A stretch of DNA of 64,000 bases from Branchiostoma floridae. Lineage: Eukaryota > Chordata > Leptocardii > Amphioxiformes > Branchiostomatidae. Under the pieces are notes generated by a model. That model made no database searches. It was not told the origin of the DNA and saw only the letters and a list, made by a program, of their open reading frames with translations. The DNA lies in contig NC_049990.1 in assembly GCF_000003815.2 (NCBI RefSeq), forward strand, positions 20,923,189-20,987,188, written 5' to 3'. The position numbers and the translations under genes were made by a program. Shown piece by piece: positions 23,102 through 63,882 of the stretch. Every line of letters starts with the position of its first letter. The stretch's first letter is position 1.

Positions 23102-23370
23102 GACGTGTAGTGTCGTTCATAGTTGTACACAGTATTGTGTGTGTCGTATACAGTCGTACGCAGTCTTGTATGTGTCGTACACGGTCGTGTATTTGTCGTA
23201 CACAGTCGTGTATGTGTCGTACATAGTCATGTAAGTGTAGTACACAGTGGTGTATGTGTCGTGCACAGTCGTGTATGTGTCGTGCACAGTCGTGTGTGTG
23301 TAGTGCGCAGTCGTGTATGTGTCGTGCATAGTCGTGTTTGTGTCATACACAGTCGTGTATGTGTTGTACA
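23102..23370. repeat. 21-bp minisatellite, about 12-13 copies
   Basis: The unit resembles GTGTATGTGTCGTACACAGTC with substitutions between copies. Because 21 is a multiple of three and the unit lacks stops in several frames, long open frames appear on both strands (Val-Val-His-Ser-Arg-Val-Cys on plus, Tyr-Asp-Thr-Tyr-Thr-Thr-Val on minus). These are not genes. Confidence 0.92.
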
Positions 23371-24660
23371 CATTTATTGATCTATTTCCTTTCAAAACAA
23401 CTTATTAAAGTTTATTTTTACGTTACGAGGGCCAAGTGTGTATAGGACAAGTCATGTTACATTAAAAGTGTGCCAATTGTACGACTAATTTAACTAAACC
23501 GCACTGCAGAGTTACAGAACTAGCAATATCTTCTCTTCAGAACGTCCCATCAAGATGTCAATCATCCGTGCCTTCTAGTCAACATGGGGGGATATCACCT
23601 TAATCCTACCCACAGGTCTCTGTCCACATTGTGGGATTGAATTCTCCTGCTCATATTTTCCCAAAGACGGAGCACAATTCATCTCCTATCCAATATCAGG
23701 TCTATATCCACTTCTAAACCCTTGTAGAGCCTCTCTTCAGCATTCTCCACACATCTTAGAGTCTAGACATGTAATGAGTAGAGAAACTTTGGACCACTAA
23801 GCTACTGGTATGATGTACTTCTTGTTTGTGTCTGTCGTCTGTATCCCTTCATCTTCTCTTCTTACTGTTTCCCTGATTTCATCTTTTCTATCAATACCTC
23901 ATTGGTCACTGCTACCCTTTACGTCATCTCTCATTACTCGAAGTATTACATAAATAGGCAGTTGTTCTTGCTTTCAGACGACCACCGTGTAGTGTAAGGC
24001 TATTACCTCCATGAAAAATGAAGATATAGTTTTTGGCGTGTTTATTTGTCTGTATGTCTGTCTGTGTGTGTGTTTTTCTTGATGATAGTGGTCAACATGA
24101 CTTAAGAACCTGTTGTTGATGGATTGTAATGATATTTGGTAGACGTTGGTCGAAGAAAAGGGACAATGTCAAGGGTCAAAGACAAGTATCAAGGTCAAGT
24201 ATTGCCTCCTTGGTGTGTGACCTTGATACTGAGGCAAAAATTCTGTGCGTTTCTGCATCTTTTGTTTTGGACATGCTATGGTCTTGATGGCTTTAGGAAA
24301 AATAGGAAATCCCCAATTTTGTGTCAGACCAAGTTAAGGATCTAATGCAATGTTATAAACCTAGTGCATTCTACAACTTTCCCGTCATAAGAGAGCTGAA
24401 ATGTGTACCTCTCAAGTTTTGTCGTGACCCTATCGTATGTAGAATGTGGCCGGACCCTAATTCGTCTTGCTCTTTTAGTCGTCACCTTGTCTGTTTTTCC
24501 TGCAACTGTTCTTTCACATCTGTCACAACTGTGGTTCATTTTCACATTGTTAATGACAGATGTCGATTTTCTCTCTCCCACTTTAAGAAACCTTACCCAA
24601 TAACATACCATCTAAGCTAACCCTCTAGATGCCTTTACGTGATAAATACAGTCCAAGCTA
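23371..24660. other. No supported gene; interspersed repeat
   Basis: At about 23,985-24,320 a TGTCTGTATGTCTGTCTGTG tract is followed by GTAATGATATTTGGTAGACG. I recall this pairing from an unclassified interspersed repeat of marine invertebrates. No exon is supported. Confidence 0.4.
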
Positions 24661-44897: not shown

Positions 44898-47800
44898 ATG
44901 TCTTCACCATGTGAGAACCAGCCCAGTATCAACAGTTCCCACAACATGGCAGTGGAGTACACCAACATGGGTGCTGATCTCAGCACCGAGTCTCAAGTCA
45001 GTAATGTCTCCATTTGTGTATCATGCAACTTTGCATGTAGTAAAGAAACTTTGACCAATAGATAGCCATGATATATCATATGTTGTAGATGTTAAAACTT
45101 AAAGTTTACAATTATGAAAGCATCAGAATTTGGAGGAGAAACTTCCAATGGATAGTTTTTGTCTCATAGAATGTTATGATAACAGAATGTTGGTAATATT
45201 TCCTTTCCTGGGACCTCTTGGGGTCTGGCTCAATCATGCTGCAGTTACACCACATGACCTCACAAATTAGTTGATATGTTAAACTCAAATGGTTCAAAAA
45301 GAGAGAAACATTTGTCTTGACATTACCTTAAAAACACTTAAAACAGTTACAGACTTCAAACCATTTCTTGTGACACATCGTTCCAGGATGACCGTCCGTT
45401 CCGAGAGATGATGATAGCCAGTGAGCTGAGCAGCAGTGTGGATGATCCTGACATCACCATCATTAGGGACTATACATCCTCTATGAGCAGTGCAGTCAAA
45501 GTAGAGGTATGCAATGTTACAGTTTTAAATGTAAAGAAGTGCTCAAAATACTTTTTCGGCCATGTTGCTGAGGCGACAACCTGAGTCAAAAGCCAGGTTG
45601 CACCATCAATATTTCAGGTTGCCCCACTTCAAAGTTATTACTTTCTTCAAATCAGCTACTTATCCATTATCATATGTTCCACCTTCATGTAACTACTTAT
45701 GTTTTATCTTATCAAGAAATCAAAACAAAAGCTTATGCACGCTGGTGAGCAAAAGCGGTGTTCCAACTGCAAAATTTCAGGTTGCGCACTGCACTACCTA
45801 GGTTTAAGATTAAGTTGCGCCAAGCAAAATGTATTTGCATTTGCTGGTGTGCAAGTGGGTTTTTCAAGCACAGTGTAAAGTTAAACCTTTCTAACTATGC
45901 ACATCAAATGTATTTGATAGTTTAGTAAAAGATATATCTAAAACATTTTAGAAAATGGCACACGAGTGGATAGAGTGGGTAGAGCCTTGCATATGGTAGG
46001 TCGAGAGGTCATTCTTCAGCCAATTCATACCAAAGACTTGATTCATGCTGCTTTCTCTGATAAGTACTCAGCATATGGGAAAGAGTGTGGAAGTGGAACA
46101 CACACACCACTACCAGTGAACTAGCCCCCTGGTGTAGTGATTGCACAAACGTTGTGTGGCCCAAGGCTACTGAAACAGAGATGGGTGCCACACTGTGCAC
46201 CATCTGATGCGGGAAGGACCTTTTTATTTTAAACATTAGTCAGATACATTTTGAAAGTTACCTTTTTGTTTGTTTTACAGATCACTGATGCTAACGACGC
46301 AGAGTTTAACTACAGTACTTCAGCAGCCCTCAGGAAGTGTAAGAAACAGGTTCTACAGCCATATGGGAGACTACTGGCTTTGGTGAGTTGTTTTCATGCA
46401 GAATATACTGCAGCAAATATCTCAAATATAAAAGTAGAAATTTCAAATGCAAGAAAGCACCTAAGAAAAGTGCATTGGTTCAAAGTCATCATGTTGTAAG
46501 TTGTAACTGTCTCTGAGGGCCACGAGGATTTTGATAAAACTGTTTGAATATTTTTGCAGACTATATACAATGTCAACTAACATAATTGTATTCTACTATG
46601 TGCATTTGACTTCTAGCTTCTTTGTGACACCAAAAATGTATGCAATTATATGTTTTACAATTTACAATTATAAAGTTTTGTCTAAATTTGTCTGGAATAT
46701 GAATTTGTCTCTGCTACTTGCTAGTAGGTATATGAAGTAGGGAAACATTAAGTTCTATCCATCTATGAAGTTAAGCTCTCTCTTTGTTGTATAATCTACA
46801 TTCTAATACAAAATGCTTTTCATCTTCTACTCTATCCATATTACAATGTATAATGCACTGACTTCATTATTTGGCTGCTATGAAACCCAGTTTTCTGTCC
46901 TTGGTTTCAGATTGGATGGCGAGCGCTCGGTCGTGAGTCCATCTCCAACAACCTTGGCTGGAAGGTGCTGAACGTACTGTACACCATCTTCATCCTGTTC
47001 CTCCTCATCTTCTCCTACATCTTCCAGGTCCTGGTGTGTCAGGGGAGGCTCAACATTCACACTGATGTTAAGGTACCTGTGCAACATAATGTATTAGATC
47101 AGGCTTTTAGCTAAGGATTTAACTACAGGGGGTCCAAGTTTCTTCAATGGTGAGTTGTGGTAAGTGCACTTCTATAGTAGGGGGGGTCCAGGAGCATCCA
47201 CTTTCCATTGTGCAGAGTTTTCAAGAATTTTAAGTTAAAATGGTGCATTTTAAGGTATCCTGAGGGGCAAAATTACTGTCAGAGAGGTCACAGTACAAGA
47301 CTGTGACCACAAATGACCTAGTGGCATCCCTAGGTCTGGGTCCCCCTTGCAGCTTTTTGGAGCTGCAGGGGCCATTTTTGTTAACCTCAGTACAACATGA
47401 ATGCCCAGTTGGGGCCAAACATTGTGGGCACTTTTACATGCATTGTGGTGTGCACTGCATTCCAGGCTCCTACAGAAACCCCAGCCACACAGGTCCCACA
47501 GACATCAAGCGTAACACCATGGTCCATCAATGAGACCAACATGTTCACAGCTCAAACCATTCCTACATCCACCAACGCCACGACGATCGACGCCTACGCC
47601 CAGCCCGCGCAGTGTTCCCACGTCTTCACCACATACGTCGTACCGGACATCCTGCACTTCATGGCCTACCTGCTAGGGTTCTTCTACTTCCGCATACAGG
47701 ACAATGAACAGCTGTATGCACTAATGGAAAAGGTACTACAGTTGGATGAATAGCAAAGATCTTAGGAAATAGTTCAACCAGTAGTTCAAGCACTTATTGT

Positions 47801-50800
47801 CACTTGAATGTTTTTCTAATCCCCCCTTTTTATATACATCAATCCCAATACTGGTAACTAATGAATAAACGCCAGTATTACAAGGGATTGTTGCAGTTTC
47901 ATATGTGATCTTTGGTTTGTTGGGCAAAGGTAAAAAGTTGTAAAAACATTTCTTGACCGATGATGAGATTAATGTATGGGCCAGTTTTCTTAAGAAGAAT
48001 TATGTGTTGCTTGATATTCTATGAGTGTTATTCTATTTCTTGTCAATGTGTTGCAGAGAAGTTAACATTATGACATTGTGGACACTGATTTCTCTTTTGT
48101 GTCAATACCAGGTCTTCTTAAAAGCATCTGTAGCTCAGTCTAGAAATGTGTCCAGAGCTAAAATGATCCAAATGTCAAGGTGAGTTCAAGAAATATTGTG
48201 TAAAAAAAACATTGTCTTGCTTTCATACATCTGTTTTCCTTTTAATGATATCACAGAGTGATTTGGTTTGGTTTTATCACTTAGGAAGATCTAGAAATCT
48301 CTGTAACTCGTAAAATACCAGTATTCACAATTCTTCCTGGCATCCAGCAAAATAGAATAGTAAAGTAGACTAATGTAAGATAATGCACTGTTTGATGCTT
48401 TCTTTCCCATTTTGTTGTTGTTTCAGGATATACCTGATAGCAGGTGCCTTGTGGGTAGTGTTGTCCCTTGCTGTACAGGGAGTGTTTGTAGCAGCCTTTG
48501 GTGTGGATAAGATGACTTTCCTGGGAACTGCTGTACAATGGTGAAAACACTAAATTTCCCTTGTTTTAGTTCTAAATCCAGTTTATTCATGCCCAACAAC
48601 CTTGTTCGTCAAACTGATCTGATAAAAGTCAATTAGAATTCTGTGTAATGAACACTTTGAAGTACAATTCTTTCTCCAATGCCGAATTGTTTGTGTGCCC
48701 TACTACTTTAGGAAAGGATATAGGCTTCAGTTTTTTTGTATGTCTTCAATGGTATTTACCTTAGGAGATGCTGGAATGTTATGCTGAAATTTCTTGAGAC
48801 CTATTGGGTCTTGATTGAGTGAAGTACTGTAAATCTTGTACCTTTTGCTATGGTTTTATTTTCGTGGTTTTTCATGACACTTACAAAATTGCATTTCAAA
48901 TGCATTACCGCTGCATTACAGAGTTTTTCAAGCATGAAACCTTCTTTCGTCTCCAACTGTGAAAATCAAAGAATTTGCCCATATGCTATTGTAACAGTTT
49001 TTTTTTTTCTTATGTTCATTATTCTTATAGGAAAGGCTGGCACATCATGCTGATTTGTCTGCAGATGTTGGGGGCCTTGGTGACTAATGCAGTGAACTAT
49101 GCTGTAGTGGTTAACTACACCACCCAGTGTGAGATGATCATCTACTACATGAAGGGTATCTTTAGACGACTGCAGGAGAAATCAACCGACCTGAAGCTAG
49201 CCATGCATGTAAGTTCAATTTATAAGATATTGCCTAGTTACTAAGAATCGTTAGACCCAACATTCACCACCATAAAATGTGTTATTCATGATCAGCATAT
49301 GCAGAAATGTAGGTTACCATGTAAAATACATGTATTCTTATTGTGTCGATAAAGTAATCAAAATCTGTGATCTAGCCAAGTCTTGAATGTAGGACCAGAT
49401 TACTTGATTTTACAATACAGGCCTTTTCTGTTTCTGTATCGATGATAGCTAGCATGTGAGCTTTGTAGGACAGTACGTGATGTGGCAGTAGCTGGTTGTA
49501 TTACACTGAACAATCTGTCACATCTAGCCTTTGCACATCTGTCTGTTAAAGCATTGTTTCAAGCTATCTACTGACTACCCTACTGTATGCCAACAAGTTC
49601 CACTCTGAGACTCTTAATATCATGTTCTTCTTTTCTCTGGTACTTAAAGGATATCTTAGATGCTGGGAAGTCCATCTCCCAACTCAATGGACAAATTGCC
49701 AAGATGACGTCTCTGTGTGCAGTCAACTTTGCTGAATTATCAATTATTGGTAAGAAAGTAGTATACCCATTTTCAGTAGACAATTTCTGCCATACTGCAG
49801 CATTGTTTGTACAATACATTACATTACACTACAATACAATACATTTAGATGTGTTGCTTGAGTGCTCTAACCTAAGAGTAGGCTACAGAAGTCTTTTATG
49901 CCACTCGCCTATATCGTCAGTATATGTATTATCATTATCAAGAACATCATCCAATTTTAAGTCTGGAGTCCTGTGTCTTTCCTTAGGGTACCTTTTTTTC
50001 TAATGTTGGCTCCCATAAGATTTGAGCTTAGTACTAGCAACTGAACCATAATATTATACATCTTGGATTCATCTATAGCATGTAAATGTTTTGTAGGTCT
50101 TGTGATCCTGTTTCTGAACGAGTTCCACAGTGTGCTGATCTGGGTCTACAGGGGGACCTTCCCCATACTGTGGCTGGTTATCCTCATTGTGCCACTGGTG
50201 CAGGTATGTTATAAACTGCTAGGGGGCACTTCTGTATGGTAATTGAGGATAAAGTACCAATATATTGGATGGACATTCAAGTGATGAGATATGCAATATA
50301 AAAGATACTGAAGCTGCTAGGTAGATTTTGTTTATGGTCAGACATTTCAGTTACTGCTAAAAGATAGTGGACTAAGTGGATGCTACCTAAAATATCTGAC
50401 CGTATACACTATCCAGTTGGTTGAATACCTTTTGTATACTTTTGACAAAGATTTGAACAACATACACACAACTAAAGTTCAATTAGCTTGGGGAAGCTTT
50501 CGAGACGACCTCTGTCTCTTTGTCAACCCGGGGATCTCATCTTGGAGTTTCTCTGTCACGTGACGTTTGATGGACCTTTTGTATGGTTTAAGGGTGAAAC
50601 AGGTCAAAGTGTATGCATTTTTTCTAGCCATGGAATAACAAGATACAAATAAAAATGCCTCAGAATTAAAAAATATGTACAATGTTGAAAGCATTATTAT
50701 ATAATAGGCAACATGATATTATCATAAATACATGTAAATTCCACTGACATTTAAAATGGTTTAACAGACAATAGACAGAATAGAAATATTCATCATCACA

Positions 50801-51805
50801 GTCCTTTGATTATTATATTAATCAGTAGGTCACTGCTCATTCCGGTTTACAAGGCTTGCCACATACAGTTTAGAAAAAACAACAATTGAAATAAAATACT
50901 GAAAATATCTGTACATTTCAAATTGTCATTGCCCCTCAAGATGACAGAAGTGATTTTGCAGTGAAAATTTCTTGTTTGAATGTAGACTCATGGTGAGTGT
51001 TTTCCTTGTGTTGGAACAAAGCTTAAACCTGTCAACTGAAAGTTTCTTTTTGATGTCCCCAGGCTGCGAGACTGAACTCCACCATCATGAGTCTGAAGAG
51101 GATCGGACTGGACATGCGAGTGTTCGGGTACCAGAACTCCTCTCAGCTGGAGAGGGACTCCTTCTTACTCTTCCTACTCAACCTTAACTTCAAGGTCTGT
51201 TCAATCTGTGTTTTATCAAAGAGCATAGTGCAGAATTGTCGTAAAAAGGACAAAGAAGTACAAAACACAAGCCATATCCACTCCTGATGTTTCTGGAAAC
51301 TATTTGATGTATGGAAAAATTTATGTGCCATATTTTATTTTATTTCCAGGATGAATATACAGTGGAAGCCAGTTAATTGCACATCGGATTAACGCACACT
51401 TCTGTTAACTGCACGGAATCCCCAAATCCCAAACCAGTGCGGTCCAGCTAGATAACTTCGCATAATTGCACCAGCCGGATAATTGCACCAAATTCGCTGG
51501 CAAATAGGCCGTGCAGTTAAGCGGCTTTTACTGTAGTAAACAATCTGCATGTGACAACATAATTTCAGTGCTCGTATCATGACTATGTCAACTATGATAC
51601 TTGACAAACTGTATAAAGTTAGCTGAAATCGATCTTAGAACTTGCAGTCAATATACTAGTACCTTTGTCTTTTGTTTTGCAGGCCAAACTGTTCCATATC
51701 CCCATCAAGCCATCCTACCTGTTTGGTATCCTGGTACTCGTGACCTTTACCCTCTTGTTGCTGCTTCAGACTAGTGTCATTGGAGGGTCAAGCATCTTCT
51801 TGTAA
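44898..51805 (+). CDS. Gustatory-receptor-like seven-transmembrane protein (GRL family)
   Basis: Twelve coding exons join in frame to 523 aa: 44898-44996, 45387-45506, 46281-46382, 46911-47072, 47466-47732, 48112-48179, 48427-48540, 49031-49208, 49650-49749, 50097-50203, 51063-51194, 51683-51805. All introns are GT-AG. Seven hydrophobic segments lie near residues 126-150, 217-237, 274-298, 313-339, 389-410, 416-439 and 494-516, after a 107-residue hydrophilic N-terminus. The TM1-TM2 loop is Thr/Pro-rich with two N-glycosylation sequons (N183, N198), which suits the inverted (N-inside) topology of insect gustatory receptors. The C-terminus fits the family: a phase-0 intron precedes a last exon beginning AKLFHIP and ending in TM7 with FTLLLLLQT (505-513), a match to the TYhhhhhQF signature. 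The family forms ligand-gated channels in insects; the ligand here is unknown. The start is the first ATG of the exon (ACCATGT). Confidence 0.8.
45955..46225 (+). mobile_element. tRNA-derived SINE in GRL intron 2
   Basis: An A-box-like GTGGATAGAGTGGGTAGAGC starts the element. Next comes a decayed B-box region near 46,000-46,020, then a body with ATGCTGCTTTCTCTGATAAG and CCCCTGGTGTAGTGATTGCA, and a 3' part with GATGGGTGCCACACTGTGCA and CATCTGATGCGGGAAGGACC. The arrangement matches the general plan of invertebrate SINEs with a conserved central domain. Confidence 0.65.
48825..48960. mobile_element. Fragment of an ACTGTAAAT-type MITE in GRL intron 7
   Basis: ACTGTAAATCTTGTACCTTT followed by GGTTTTATTTTCGTGGTTTT resembles the start of a MITE family I recall from molluscs and lancelets. 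No matching right end was seen, so it is partial or misassigned. Confidence 0.3.
51360..51533. mobile_element. pogo/Tigger-like MITE in GRL intron 11
   Basis: The left end CAGTGGAAGCCAGTTAATTG continues CAC; the right end on the minus strand reads CAGTAAAAGCCGCTTAACTG then CAC. Both are flanked by TA (51,358-51,359 and 51,534-51,535). CAGT termini with TA duplications are the hallmark of the pogo/Tigger group. At 174 bases it has no transposase. Confidence 0.8.
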
Positions 51806-51838: not shown

Positions 51839-51913
51839 TTCATTCTGGTTCTGGTGACCTTTACCCTTTTGCTGCTGCTTCAAACAAGTGTCATGTCTAT
51901 CATCTGCCTGTAG
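51839..51913 (+). pseudogene. Second copy of the GRL TM7 coding end
   Basis: It begins 34 bases after the GRL stop codon. A 24-codon frame, preceded by an in-frame TAG that could serve as a splice acceptor (GGTCGTAG|TTC, phase 0, like the real one), repeats the end of TM7: FILVLVTFTLLLLLQTSV then MSIICL and a stop. The shared 15-codon core (VLVTFTLLLLLQTSV) is identical in protein but differs at six nucleotides, all synonymous. The copy is offset by 114 bases from the original. It is either an alternative last exon or a recent tandem duplication of the exon end. Used as an exon, it would lack the segment before TM7. Confidence 0.6.
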
Positions 51914-52059: not shown

Positions 52060-52240
52060 CTCACAATAATACTTCCTGTGGGTTCACAGGTCATGGTTGC
52101 ACTTCCTGTAGGAAAAAATGTTATGGCTGTAGTTCCTGTGGGGTCATAGGTTATTGTTACACTTCCTGCAGGTCAAAATGTTATGGCTGTACTTCCTGCG
52201 GGGTCACAGGTTATGGTTACACTTCATGTTGGAGCAAACT
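52060..52240. repeat. 30-bp minisatellite in the GRL 3' region
   Basis: About six copies of a roughly 30-base unit (CACTTCCTG(T/C)(G/A)GG..., with alternating GTCA-AGGTTATGG and AAAATGTTATGGCTG halves giving a 60-base higher-order period). Related GGTCATGG...CTTCCTGTTGGG pieces occur at 51,814-51,960, so the repeat seems to have spread from just after the stop codon. The Cys/Gly/Tyr-rich open frame through it is not a gene. Confidence 0.85.
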
Positions 52241-57318: not shown

Positions 57319-60300
57319 TTAGACCCAGTTCTCGTTCCCAGACTGGATGCCGTTCCTGCGCCCGTGTCCAGGGTAGTATGACTCCATGTCGTCATCACCA
57401 CCTGTCGTGTTGGTCACGTGATTCTCCACCAACCCGCACTCTTCTCTCCACACACCCTCAAGAACCGCGCAGTAGACCTTCACCTCAGTGACGTCATCAA
57501 GGTCGTCGTCATGCTCCTGCCCGAACCAGGAGAAGCGAACCTTCTGGTCGGTCGTGACGTCATCTCGGTGACAGAACTGGCTGTCTTCCCGCCAATCAGC
57601 GTAGAACACGGCACATCTCAGTTTCCTCTGCAGCCGGGGACTCACGGGTACGTGCTGGGACAGGTGGCCGCTCTCGGAGTCACTGGAAAGTTACAAAGGC
57701 TGGTGGTTAAGAGGGTAACTCACTGGGCCACGTCTGTTTGCGAAAGACATTCGTTAACTGATTGCTGACAGACGTCAATCGACTCCTGTTTCTCACATGT
57801 GGGTGCGAATATGTCACATGAAACGGCCTTTTTCTTGAATATCAAAAAAGTGCGCAAATGGGAGGAAACTAGGGATGAGCAGTATGGCCGTTATAGGAAT
57901 ATTTTACAAAGTTGTCGCAATAATTTGTTGTTAACAGACTTTGTCCAATAAGGTAAGTACTTTAGGATATCTTACCAGTCTTTGGATCACTCTTTCTGTC
58001 ATTGTTTAGAAATTATAATAAACCAAAAATGTGAAATTTCAAAATAAGTTCAGAAACAAGATGAAATACAAGTCTTGTCTCAAATGTTACATACTAACGA
58101 TATATACATAGACTCACAAATGTCCCTCGGACAGGAACTGTTCCGAGCTGATCTCAGTGTCCGTCTTGTCTGTGACGTGTGGCGTGGATCCGATCACCTC
58201 TCGTGTAGCAGCGCTAAGCTCGTGCCGAACGGGACATGCCGTGACTGTGATGACTTCTGCCTCTGTGAAGTCAGCGCGTCGAGGACTTGTTTCTCCCGAG
58301 CTGCTGATGACGTCATTTCCCGCGTTTTCTCCGTCAGCGGGATTTGGCAGGCTGCAGGTGTTCATGACGTCAGTGCTGATGTCAGAGGTGACGTCATCCC
58401 CACAGAAGTCGTGGTCCTTCCCGACGTTCCCCTCGGAGACTTGGCCCCCTCCAAGAGGACACGCGGAAGGTGACTTCTGGTCGCTGATGTCAGAGTTGGA
58501 CGTCATCAGCTCTATCGTCGGCCCCTGGTCATCATCAGACGCGGTGACGTCATTTTCAGACGACACGTCTGCTTCGTTGTGGTCTGCCCTTGTCTTTGTG
58601 TCAGGCAAGCACTGTGGTGTGCCTAGACAAAAAGACAAACCAAGTTGTAAACATACCAACTTCAAAACTGGCCAGTCCAATAAGAAACAAGAAACAGCAA
58701 GGACTACTTCAAGTTTTAGATCCCATCACACAGACAGGTGTTCAGTTTTTTTTGTTTGTTTTTTTACAGGGAGGGTTGCTAGCCCACCCCCTTCAAGGCA
58801 ATTCCACAGGTGGACATATATGGCGTATACGTAGTACTACAGAGATGGAAGAATTCGGTCGCTCACCTCTCTTGTTCACAGCATCGTTGAACACTTCCTT
58901 GATGTCTCTTCCATCTGCTTCGTCTCCAGACGTCTTACTCTCTGTGGAAGCTGTACGGACGTCTTCCACAGCGGACAGCGCCTTGTCGCGCATCTTCACG
59001 GGACCGACAGCCGTCGGCGTCTCGTCCGAGACATCCCGTGGGCACTTGTTGGCCTCCTCGGTGGAGGTAGTCTCCTCGTTTGTTTCAGCAGGCCTACCAA
59101 ACTGGGCGAAGACTTGCTGGTCTTTCTTGTCACCTCCACTAGCCTCGCTCCCGGCTACTTTCCTGTCGTTCTTTCCGAGAGGAAAGGCGGCGCTCCTGCA
59201 CAGCACCCCGGCCGGGGTCTGCGGCGCCAGCGATACCAGGTTCAGGCCCGTGTACTGACTGTTTACTGACGGGACGTACTGAACACCTGCACCTTCGAAA
59301 GGTGGTACTTCGGACGGTGTGTGCGTGGCCAGAGATCTTTTGTGCTGATGAATAACAAACAAACCAAGGTGTTTGATAGTGAACGAAAGATGTGCAGTAT
59401 AGCTATTACAGTGTATGAGACCTAAAGATGATAATCTCGACTCAAAAACAAAATTTGACTTTTGATAATATGAAGAATTACTAGTACGGAAAGAGACGAC
59501 CCTTTTATAAATCGTACAAAGCAGCTGCACAATGATCAAATGCCGCACATTTAAAAACAAACGAAAACAGATAATTCTTTATCAAATTTATAGTATGTCT
59601 ACGTTCAAGAAAAATATGTAAAGGAACACAGAAGAATCTGTAAACAATGCCACACTACTTGTGTTAAGTTCAACCTTCCTGACCAATAAGATTTCATGAA
59701 GAAGGAAACTTTGAATATTTTGTCAAGTAAGCCTTTTTTTACATGTGATCAATCATCCTTACAAGATTAATAAATAGAAAAATCACCATGTATAATACAA
59801 TCATTGATGACCTTTTGTAGGTCACAAAAAGCTACACAGGACGCCGTTCTAGAACAGTCTTCATCAGTTAGTTTTTAATTTGAGAGTTGAAAAGTACAGA
59901 AAACCTCACCTCATACAGCCCGGCAGTGACAAGGACGCCCGCCCCGATGAAGAGCCCCAGGTCCAGACCGCTCCAGTCCGCATGGCCGGTCTTGTACGGC
60001 ATGTCCGGACGGAGGCAGTTCTGTTGGGAACCGCTAGGGCGCGGTGGTGAAGTGTGCACAAGCACCATACCTGGGTCGTAAAGTGATGAGAAAAATTGTC
60101 AGAGAGGAATAAAAAGGAAAGACGAAACGTCGAGTGACATTGGTCCCAGTTATTCCCTTTTCAGTGTCCACATCGTTAGGGTCCACATATTCAGCATTAC
60201 AAATACACATTCATATTCAGTATTACTACATCTACGGAGAATAATATCTACTATATATCATATGTAACGTTATAGGTTCAACTTGTTTTCGCTTCTTAAA

Positions 60301-60954: not shown

Positions 60955-61067
60955 GTTCTGGAACACTATAACACGAGAGAGTTCGGTGTGGATGAGGGTC
61001 TAATCCAGACCATCGAAGCTGTGTATGAAAACACAACTAGGAAAGCATTACTTGACAATAAAGTTGA
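60955..61067 (+). pseudogene. Reverse-transcriptase fragment of a non-LTR element
   Basis: An open frame encodes VLEHYNTREFGVDEGLIQTI and continues EAVYENTTRKALLDNKVEG. This is the pattern between reverse-transcriptase motifs in LINE polymerases (a hydrophobic L..Y, aromatic-G, a long helix ending Y.N/Y.G, then a basic strand). The frame runs into the 366-bp array just before the expected G-V-x-Q-G motif, so the domain is cut at that junction. Confidence 0.6.
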
Positions 61068-63876
61068 GGGGCATGGCTGGGGACCAATGGCGGTCGCACA
61101 TCTCTTCGTCGCTCTTAAGGGCCCTTAAAAAACCCTGGTTCCATTGGAATGCATTGCGCCAGGGTTTTTTACACCTATTTCTTTTATACCAAGGAAGTAC
61201 CGCCGGCGCTTAGCACCAAGACACGCCCGTCACCCGCCCGCATCGACCTAGCGCGAAAGATCCGGATTCCGGGGCCGTCTGGCTGCCTGAGGCGGTGAAA
61301 TCGGGTCTACACCTGTCCAGCTTGATGACGTCATCATGGCCTTCAGGACCGCGGAAGGTATAATCGCAGCATATGGCCAGAAAGAGACATCTTTCCCCCA
61401 GACTATGGTGCCTGTCCTTAGCGCCTTGGCCAGGGGCATGGCTGGGGACCAATGGCGGGCGCACATCTCGTCGCCGCTCTTAAGGGCCCTTAAAAAGCCC
61501 TGGGTCCCATTGGAATGCATTGCGCCAGGGCTTTTTACACCTATTTCTTTTATACCAAGGAGGTACCGCCGGCGCTTAGCACCAAGACACGCCCGTCACC
61601 CGCCCGCATCGACCTAGCGCGAAAGATCCGGATTCCGGGGCCGTCTGGCTGCCTGAGGCGGTGAAATCGGGTCTACACCTGTCCAGCTTGATGACGTCAT
61701 CATGGCCTTCAGGACCGCGGAAGGTATAATCGCAGCATATGGCCAGAAAGAGACATCTTTCCCCCAGACTATGGTGCCTGTCCTCAGCGCCTTGGCCAGG
61801 GGCATGGCTGAGGACCAATGGCGGGCGCACATCTCGTCGCCGCTCTTAAGGGCCCTTAAAAAGCCCTGGGTCCCATTGGAATGCATTGCGCCAGGGCTTT
61901 TTACACCTATTTCTTTTATACCAAGGAAGTACCGCCGGCGCTTAGCACCAAGACACGCCCGTCACCCGCCCGCATCGACCTAGCGCGAAAGATCCGGATT
62001 CCGGGGCCGTCTGGCTGCCTGAGGCGGTGAAATCGGGTCTACACCTGTCCAGCTTGATGACGTCATCATGGCCTTCAGGACCGCGGAAGGTATAATCGCA
62101 GCATATGGCCAGAAAGAGACATCTTTCCCCCAGACTATGGTGCCTGTCCTCAGCGCCTTGGCCAGGGGCATGGCTGGGGACCAATGGCGGGCGCACATCT
62201 CGTCGCCGCTCTTAAGGGCCCTTAAAAAGCCCTGGGTCCCATTGGAATGCATTGCGCCAGGGCTTTTTACACCTATTTCTTTTATACCAAGGAAGTACCG
62301 CCGGCGCTTAGCACCAAGACACGCCCGTCACCCGCCCGCATCGACCTAGCGCGAAAGATCCGGATTCCGGGGCCGTCTGGCTGCCTGAGGCGGTGAAATC
62401 GGGTCTACACCTGTCCAGCTTGATGACGTCATCATGGCCTTCAGGACCGCGGAAGGTATAATCGCAGCATATGGCCAGAAAGAGACATCTTTCCCCCAGA
62501 CTATGGTGCCTGTCCTCAGCGCCTTGGCCAGGGGCATGGCTGGGGACCAATGGCGGGCGCACATCTCGTCGCCGCTCTTAAGGGCCCTTAAAAAGCCCTG
62601 GGTCCCATTGGAATGCATTGCGCCAGGGCTTTTTACACCTATTTCTTTTATACCAAGGAAGTACCGCCGGCGCTTAGCACCAAGACACGCCCGTCACCCG
62701 CCCGCATCGACCTAGCGCGAAAGATCCGGATTCCGGGGCCGTCTGGCTGCCTGAGGCGGTGAAATCGGGTCTACACCTGTCCAGCTTGATGACGTCATCA
62801 TGGCCTTCAGGACCGCGGAAGGTATAATCGCAGCATATGGCCAGAAAGAGACATCTTTCCCCCAGACTATGGTGCCTGTCCTCAGCGCCTTGGCCAGGGG
62901 CATGGCTGGGGACCAATGGCGGGCGCACATCTCGTCGCCGCTCTTAAGGGCCCTTAAAAAGCCCTGGGTCCCATTGGAATGCATTGCGCCAGGGCTTTTT
63001 ACACCTATTTCTTTTATACCAAGGAAGTACCGCCGGCGCTTAGCACCAAGACACGCCCGTCACCCGCCCGCATCGACCTAGCGCGAAAGATCCGGATTCC
63101 GGGGCCGTCTGGCTGCCTGAGGCGGTGAAATCGGGTCTACACCTGTCCAGCTTGATGACGTCATCATGGCCTTCAGGACCGCGGAAGGTATAATCGCAGC
63201 ATATGGCCAGAAAGAGACATCTTTCCCCCAGACTATGGTGCCTGTCCTCAGCGCCTTGGCCAGGGGCATGGCTGGGGACCAATGGCGGGCGCACATCTCG
63301 TCGCCGCTCTTAAGGGCCCTTAAAAAGCCCTGGGTCCCATTGGAATGCATTGCGCCAGGGCTTTTTACACCTATTTCTTTTATACCAAGGAAGTACCGCC
63401 GGCGCTTAGCACCAAGACACGCCCGTCACCCGCCCGCATCGACCTAGCGCGAAAGATCCGGATTCCGGGGCCGTCTGGCTGCCTGAGGCGGTGAAATCGG
63501 GTCTACACCTGTCCAGCTTGATGACGTCATCATGGCCTTCAGGACCGCGGAAGGTATAATCGCAGCATATGGCCAGAAAGAGACATCTTTCCCCCAGACT
63601 ATGGTGCCTGTCCTCAGCGCCTTGGCCAGGGGCATGGCTGGGGACCAATGGCGGGCGCACATCTCGTCGCCGCTCTTAAGGGCCCTTAAAAAGCCCTGGG
63701 TCCCATTGGAATGCATTGCGCCAGGGCTTTTTACACCTATTTCTTTTATACCAAGGAAGTACCGCCGGCGCTTAGCACCAAGACACGCCCGTCACCCGCC
63801 CGCATCGACCTAGCGCGAAAGATCCGGATTCCGGGGCCGTCTGGCTGCCTGAGGCGGTGAAATCGGGTCTACACCT
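61068..63876. repeat. 366-bp tandem satellite array, about 7.7 units
   Basis: A first divergent unit (365 bp) is followed by six nearly identical 366-bp units and a partial one. Visible differences are single bases, e.g. AGGAGGTACC at 61,558 and GCTGAGGACC near 61,806. Each unit has a TTAAGGGCCCTTAA palindrome, a 12-bp-stem hairpin, ATTTCTTTTATACCAAGGAA and GATGACGTCATC, the last containing a perfect CRE. Because 366 is a multiple of three, each unit offers the same 93-codon plus-strand frame (MAFRTAEGIIAAYGQ...) and 84- and 90-codon minus-strand frames. These repeat with the unit and are not counted as genes. Homogeneity implies recent amplification or gene conversion, and assembly may have collapsed copies. 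Confidence 0.95.
61127..61170. other. Hairpin of the divergent first satellite unit
   Basis: Stem arms AAAAAACCCTGG (61,127-61,138) and CCAGGGTTTTTT (61,159-61,170) enclose a 20-base loop. All later units have AAAAAGCCCTGG and CCAGGGCTTTTT with a 21-base loop. The one stem position that differs changes on both arms (G-C to A-T), so pairing is kept. In later units the feature recurs every 366 bases. Confidence 0.85.
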
Positions 63877-63882
63877 TCCAGC

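Follow-up and report, generated by a model that had tools for sequence, protein, structure and literature searches.

The locus at positions 44898-51805 (+ strand) of the 64,000-nucleotide stretch of Branchiostoma floridae DNA analysed here, which we call the window, raises the question of whether a chordate encodes a gustatory-receptor-like (GRL) protein, as an earlier note on this DNA had proposed. The gene at this position is real and its 12 predicted exons are confirmed; the exon boundaries are predicted and were picked to suit splice sites. Each of the 11 introns is GT-AG, and joining the exons gives an open frame of 523 codons plus a stop, distributed as follows.

44898-44996, + strand: exon 1, the first coding exon, with a likely 5' leader exon upstream (splice model)
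45387-45506, + strand: exon 2, cytosolic N-terminus (splice model)
46281-46382, + strand: exon 3, cytosolic N-terminus (splice model)
46911-47072, + strand: exon 4, TM1 (splice model, topology)
47466-47732, + strand: exon 5, TM2 and most of outer loop 1 (64 aa, two sequons) (splice model, topology)
48112-48179, + strand: exon 6, inner loop 1 (splice model)
48427-48540, + strand: exon 7, TM3 and the short outer loop 2 (splice model, topology)
49031-49208, + strand: exon 8, TM4 plus the extension on its inner side (splice model, topology)
49650-49749, + strand: exon 9, inner loop 2 and the start of TM5 (splice model, topology)
50097-50203, + strand: exon 10, end of TM5, outer loop 3 and the greater part of TM6 (splice model, topology)
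51063-51194, + strand: exon 11, the TM6 inner extension and a TM7a-like amphipathic stretch, flanking introns both phase 0 (splice model, topology)
51683-51805, + strand: exon 12, TM7b with FTLLLLLQT and the stop (splice model, topology)

The coding sequence has a GC content of 0.49 and a GC3 of 0.63, compared with 0.36 GC in the introns. Because the ATG is placed 3 bases past an acceptor-like AG, the gene probably has a 5' leader exon further upstream. That the gene model is partly wrong, with mis-joined exons, or that the gene is a decaying, unexpressed copy, would be in line with the weak acceptor of exon 9 (judged by eye), with the lowest GC3 values among the exons, those of exon 6 (0.36) and exon 9 (0.42), and with exon joins that were predicted from genomic sequence. 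However, all introns are GT-AG, the 12 exons are open without stops and no better copy was found in the genome, and we regard this explanation as very unlikely. A bacterial-type promoter scan was uninformative for this gene. Within the last intron, a short element (51360-51536) with the ends CAGTGGAAGCCAGTTAATTGCAC and CGGCTTTTACTGTAGT resembles, by eye, a non-autonomous transposon of the pogo/Tigger type.

A genome-wide protein search (513,431,437 bases in 431 contigs; 15 candidates scored) returned 12 matches, each to a different exon of the gene. No paralogue was found within the window or across roughly 198 kb of flanking sequence (less a 900-base gap upstream), and peptide-pattern searches with the C-terminal 212 aa matched 41 stretches in a genome contig collection and 2 in a viral contig collection, none of them a relative. 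At the search sensitivity used the gene is apparently single copy, with the qualification that a second copy of the TM7 end, described below, is absent from the listing of the genome-wide search, so that short diverged copies may escape it.

Nine hydropathy rows of the 523-aa protein exceed the threshold, and seven of these are read as membrane segments, with segment ends placed by hand from hydropathy and loop charge; the rows left over lie at 291-310 (TM3 tail/EL2) and 473-491 (the TM7a-like stretch). Lysine plus arginine counts are 6, 7 and 7 in inner loops 1-3 but 2, 2 and 1 for the outer loops and zero for the C-terminus, and this bias toward the inner loops therefore puts N inside and C outside, the opposite of GPCRs. 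Hydropathy and loop charge agree with the seven membrane segments of the earlier note and suggest a predicted layout, seven segments with N inside and C outside, of the kind expected of the 7TMIC superfamily. Because the 124-aa N-terminus is acidic as a whole (11 K+R, 17 D+E), the N-inside call leans on the loops and on a stretch next to TM1 where its basic residues cluster (by eye). Sequons in the first outside loop, to which the note had also pointed, are present at N183 and N198 in this 64-aa loop (EL1), but the other 6 of the 8 sequons sit in presumed cytosolic or membrane parts, where glycosylation is unexpected, and they are thus undiagnostic of topology. Proline is absent between residues 221 and 426, which is compatible with long helices extending below the membrane, and the 51-aa inner stretch that separates TM6 from TM7 contains an amphipathic part whose position before residue 484 makes a TM7a/7b split possible; the proline-free run and the amphipathic stretch are together compatible with anchor projections of TM4-6 and a split TM7.

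In the last segment, FTLLLLLQT stands in place of TYhhhhhQF, as described before. The TM7 motif of the insect GR/OR families (Pfam PF08395, PF02949) is thus not reproduced: one of its four fixed positions, Q512, is kept at the correct spacing, and F and T occupy the places of the expected T and Y. The last exon is preceded by a phase-0 intron, as the earlier note had also reported, though phase 0 occurs in 8 of the 11 introns (in order 0,0,0,0,0,2,2,0,1,0,0). It falls after residue 483, 29 residues ahead of Q512, and is a candidate counterpart of the intron looked for in GR/OR genes. PMC9998090 describes GR genes with a phase-0 intron preceding the TM7 exon, and fungal GRLs, as characterised by Benton et al. 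2020 (PMC7746228), retain just one of the four motif positions, like the 523-aa protein.

Pfam searches, listed to E 10 with HMMER filters that discard most matches above about 0.1, gave no 7tm_7, 7tm_6 or other significant family for the whole protein, TMEM213 at E 3.6 being the sole entry. The whole protein also had no match to the PHTF domain, for which Pfam contains a model, and when the protein was searched in three parts, DUF948 at 0.24 was the sole entry and neither 7tm_7 nor 7tm_6 appeared. A profile search against the 7tm_7/Gr family, one of the checks suggested in the earlier note, therefore returned no match for the whole protein or its three parts. In the control searches, two 44-aa GR tails matched 7tm_7 at 8.8e-14 and 3.5e-10 and Orco matched 7tm_6 at 7.3e-68; since 44 residues of a solved GR are enough for a match, the null result counts against 7tm_7 membership. 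PF08395 had 0 matches in the lancelet genome itself, a null that is no proof of absence because all 14 of 14 control genomes were silent as well.

Searched against the PDB, the full-length protein and its C-terminal 101 aa yielded matches at chance level only (best E 0.28 and 0.44, respectively), and against a small GR-tail profile the protein scores 0.7 bits, with its best domain away from TM7. The best hhalign match to Orco (query 343-366, Orco 227-249) had a probability of 0.1 and a score within that of shuffles; the lack of a GR-family match by HMM-HMM comparison, one half of what the earlier note had named as speaking against its proposal (the other half being structural), is thus what was found. 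The hhalign match falls just behind TM4 in both proteins. Alignment of the GR tails with Orco by hhalign is not an independent positive control, as the GR alignment included an Orco row. Among class-preserving shuffles (n=1000 each), the real score was reached by 713/1000 with Drosophila Orco and 604/1000 with A. bakeri Orco for the whole protein, and by 189/1000 and 736/1000, respectively, for the C-terminal half, and the similarity to Orco is indistinguishable from shuffle noise. Identity among 7TMIC proteins can be as low as 8% (PMC9998090), and sequence methods neither prove nor exclude membership of this protein in the superfamily. Of the proposed GRL identity, the predicted topology fits the 7TMIC/GRL layout, but a sequence link to GR, OR or another family was not found.

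These results bear on a second explanation, in which the gene encodes a seven-segment protein of another, undescribed family, possibly acting in transport or scaffolding, whose GRL likeness is topological. The absence of similarity, by the sequence methods used, to Pfam families, GRs, ORs or PDB chains agrees with it, and topology by itself is a weak character, whereas the combination of an inverted layout, proline-free inner extensions and the TM7 arrangement is, from general knowledge, unusual beyond 7TMICs. We consider it a serious possibility that falls somewhat short of probable.

According to Benton and Himmel 2023 (PMC9998090), earlier extensive searches found no 7TMIC in chordates, PHTF proteins are candidate vertebrate members of the superfamily, GRLs are known from hemichordates, and GrlHz (GrlHolozoa, the CG3831 family), a subset of which carries WD40 repeats, occurs across Holozoa, Branchiostoma floridae included. 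A 2024 review (PMC11526382) gives GRs as missing from chordates, yet cites the 7TMIC superfamily. Among open-licence full texts, GrlHz was found in PMC9998090 alone, and the open-licence literature yielded no other lancelet GRL paper by title or abstract start. The earlier note had held that a lancelet GRL would be new; because GrlHz from Branchiostoma floridae was already reported in 2023 (PMC9998090), this novelty is gone, and the 12-exon gene may be the published lancelet GrlHz. A special case of the 7TMIC reading would be a canonical GRL of the GR lineage, sister to the hemichordate and sea-urchin GRLs and apart from GrlHz, that was kept in a chordate. The Q at the motif place and the phase-0 intron before the TM7 exon would suit such a protein, as would the hemichordate GRLs of that kind mentioned in PMC9998090, but the prior extensive searches without a chordate 7TMIC reported in the same source, the lack of a 7tm_7 match and the replacement of the expected T and Y by F and T make it unlikely.

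A 7TMIC is favoured by the open 12-exon frame, its coding composition, the inverted seven segments and the loop charge, by the proline-free run 221-426, the 51-aa TM6-TM7 stretch and the phase-0 intron before TM7, and by the lack of a significant Pfam match to a GPCR or other family. It is weakened by the missing 7tm_7 and 7tm_6 matches, the GR-tail score of 0.7 bits and the Orco score within shuffles, and also by the three of four motif positions that differ, the acidic N-terminus and lengths of outer loops 1 and 2 opposite to those of Orco. The report of a GrlHz, itself a 7TMIC, from B. floridae (PMC9998090) speaks for it again. On balance we see about an even chance that this is an apparently single-copy lancelet gene for a very divergent 7TMIC (GR, OR, GRL, GrlHz), perhaps the known GrlHz; if it is a 7TMIC, its most economical identity is GrlHz, which has been described from the lancelet before, or something closely allied to it. 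Taking Orco and the solved GRs as models, we infer for a member of this family, on a topology predicted from sequence, a tetramer that would be held by the inner ends of TM4-TM6 and by TM7a. Its cation pore would be lined by TM7b (residues about 495-515) and opened by a ligand.

Just past the exon 12 stop, the end of TM7b is repeated at 51842-51894 with 87% DNA identity, within the following feature.

51839-51913, + strand: the end of exon 12 (TM7b and stop) repeated in tandem, with an open frame of 24 aa and a stop in the same frame

Over 17 codons (ILVLVTFTLLLLLQTSV), the two TM7 copies differ at 7 nucleotides, and 7/7 differences are synonymous; the codon that follows is a replacement, and after it come a 6-base gap and mixed changes, with the stop codon kept. 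In simulations of drift to 7 differences (n=3000 each), outcomes free of protein changes made up a fraction of 0.0 when both copies drifted and of 0.005 when copy 2 drifted alone, fractions that are somewhat flattering because the 17-codon stretch was picked after being seen. The all-synonymous differences suggest coding constraint on both copies. Read-through from copy 1 into copy 2 was rejected, since two in-frame stops stand in its way, the TAA of copy 1 and a TAG immediately ahead of copy 2. The sole acceptor-like AG seen before copy 2 (gggtcgtag) looks weak, and there is a hint that the second copy is a candidate alternative C-terminal exon, in which case the duplicated TM7b end may supply an additional C-terminus where the pore opens to the outside. 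A fuller version, in which a chordate keeps a GR-lineage channel distinct from GrlHz with two tandem TM7b/C-terminal exons under selection, so that its channels would be identical except at the pore helix's outer end, strikes us as highly improbable. Directly behind the TM7 duplicate lies a 30/60-bp minisatellite (52070-52233), and words resembling it (TTCCTGTNGGGTCA) sit, by eye, in the spacers beside the TM7 copies.

Elsewhere in the window, 61067-63882 holds a GC-rich 366-bp satellite (7.7 copies, 99% matches). Its 7 listed units have long open frames on either strand; the satellite gave no Rfam match and, in the one unit tested, no Pfam match. The window's three best-scoring coding-like frames lie on the minus strand (57322-57690, 58117-58725 and 58796-59578); they are rich in D, E, S and T, have no Pfam match over the cut-off and are possibly one gene for a disordered protein. 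A 21-bp tandem array at 23153-23372 (10.5 copies) gives, when read on the minus strand, an open frame rich in Tyr and Thr. Among twenty neighbouring frames, none had an organism-diagnostic Pfam match over the cut-off, and Rfam at gathering thresholds matched nothing in the window, nor in the 7 of 20 flanking loci searched.

If the protein is a 7TMIC, the gene offers a defined chordate locus at which to probe roles of these channels beyond insect smell and taste, and it bears on the timing of the family's loss toward vertebrates. Should it turn out to be the lancelet GrlHz in print, the gene is a known one, and with GrlHz in the lancelet and PHTF in vertebrates already described (PMC9998090), the matter is less open than the earlier note assumed.

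With the insect GRs and ORs (7tm_7, 7tm_6; Orco, Gr43a, BmGr9) the 523-aa protein shares seven segments with N inside, a phase-0 intron before the TM7 exon and a Q near the end of TM7; it differs from them in giving no profile or pairwise match, in three of the four fixed motif positions, and in its distinct 64-aa outer loop 1 and 124-aa N-terminus. In Orco, outer loop 1 is short and outer loop 2 long; in the 523-aa protein it is the other way round. The GRLs of cnidarians, echinoderms and hemichordates, compared by published description only, share the general layout. PHTF proteins have the same general topology, as outlined in PMC9998090, although the Pfam search gave no PHTF match. Unlike the WD40-bearing subset of GrlHz mentioned there, the protein shows no Pfam match in its 124-aa N-terminus; like GrlHz as sketched in the same source, it is lancelet-borne and has seven segments without a recognisable canonical TM7 motif.
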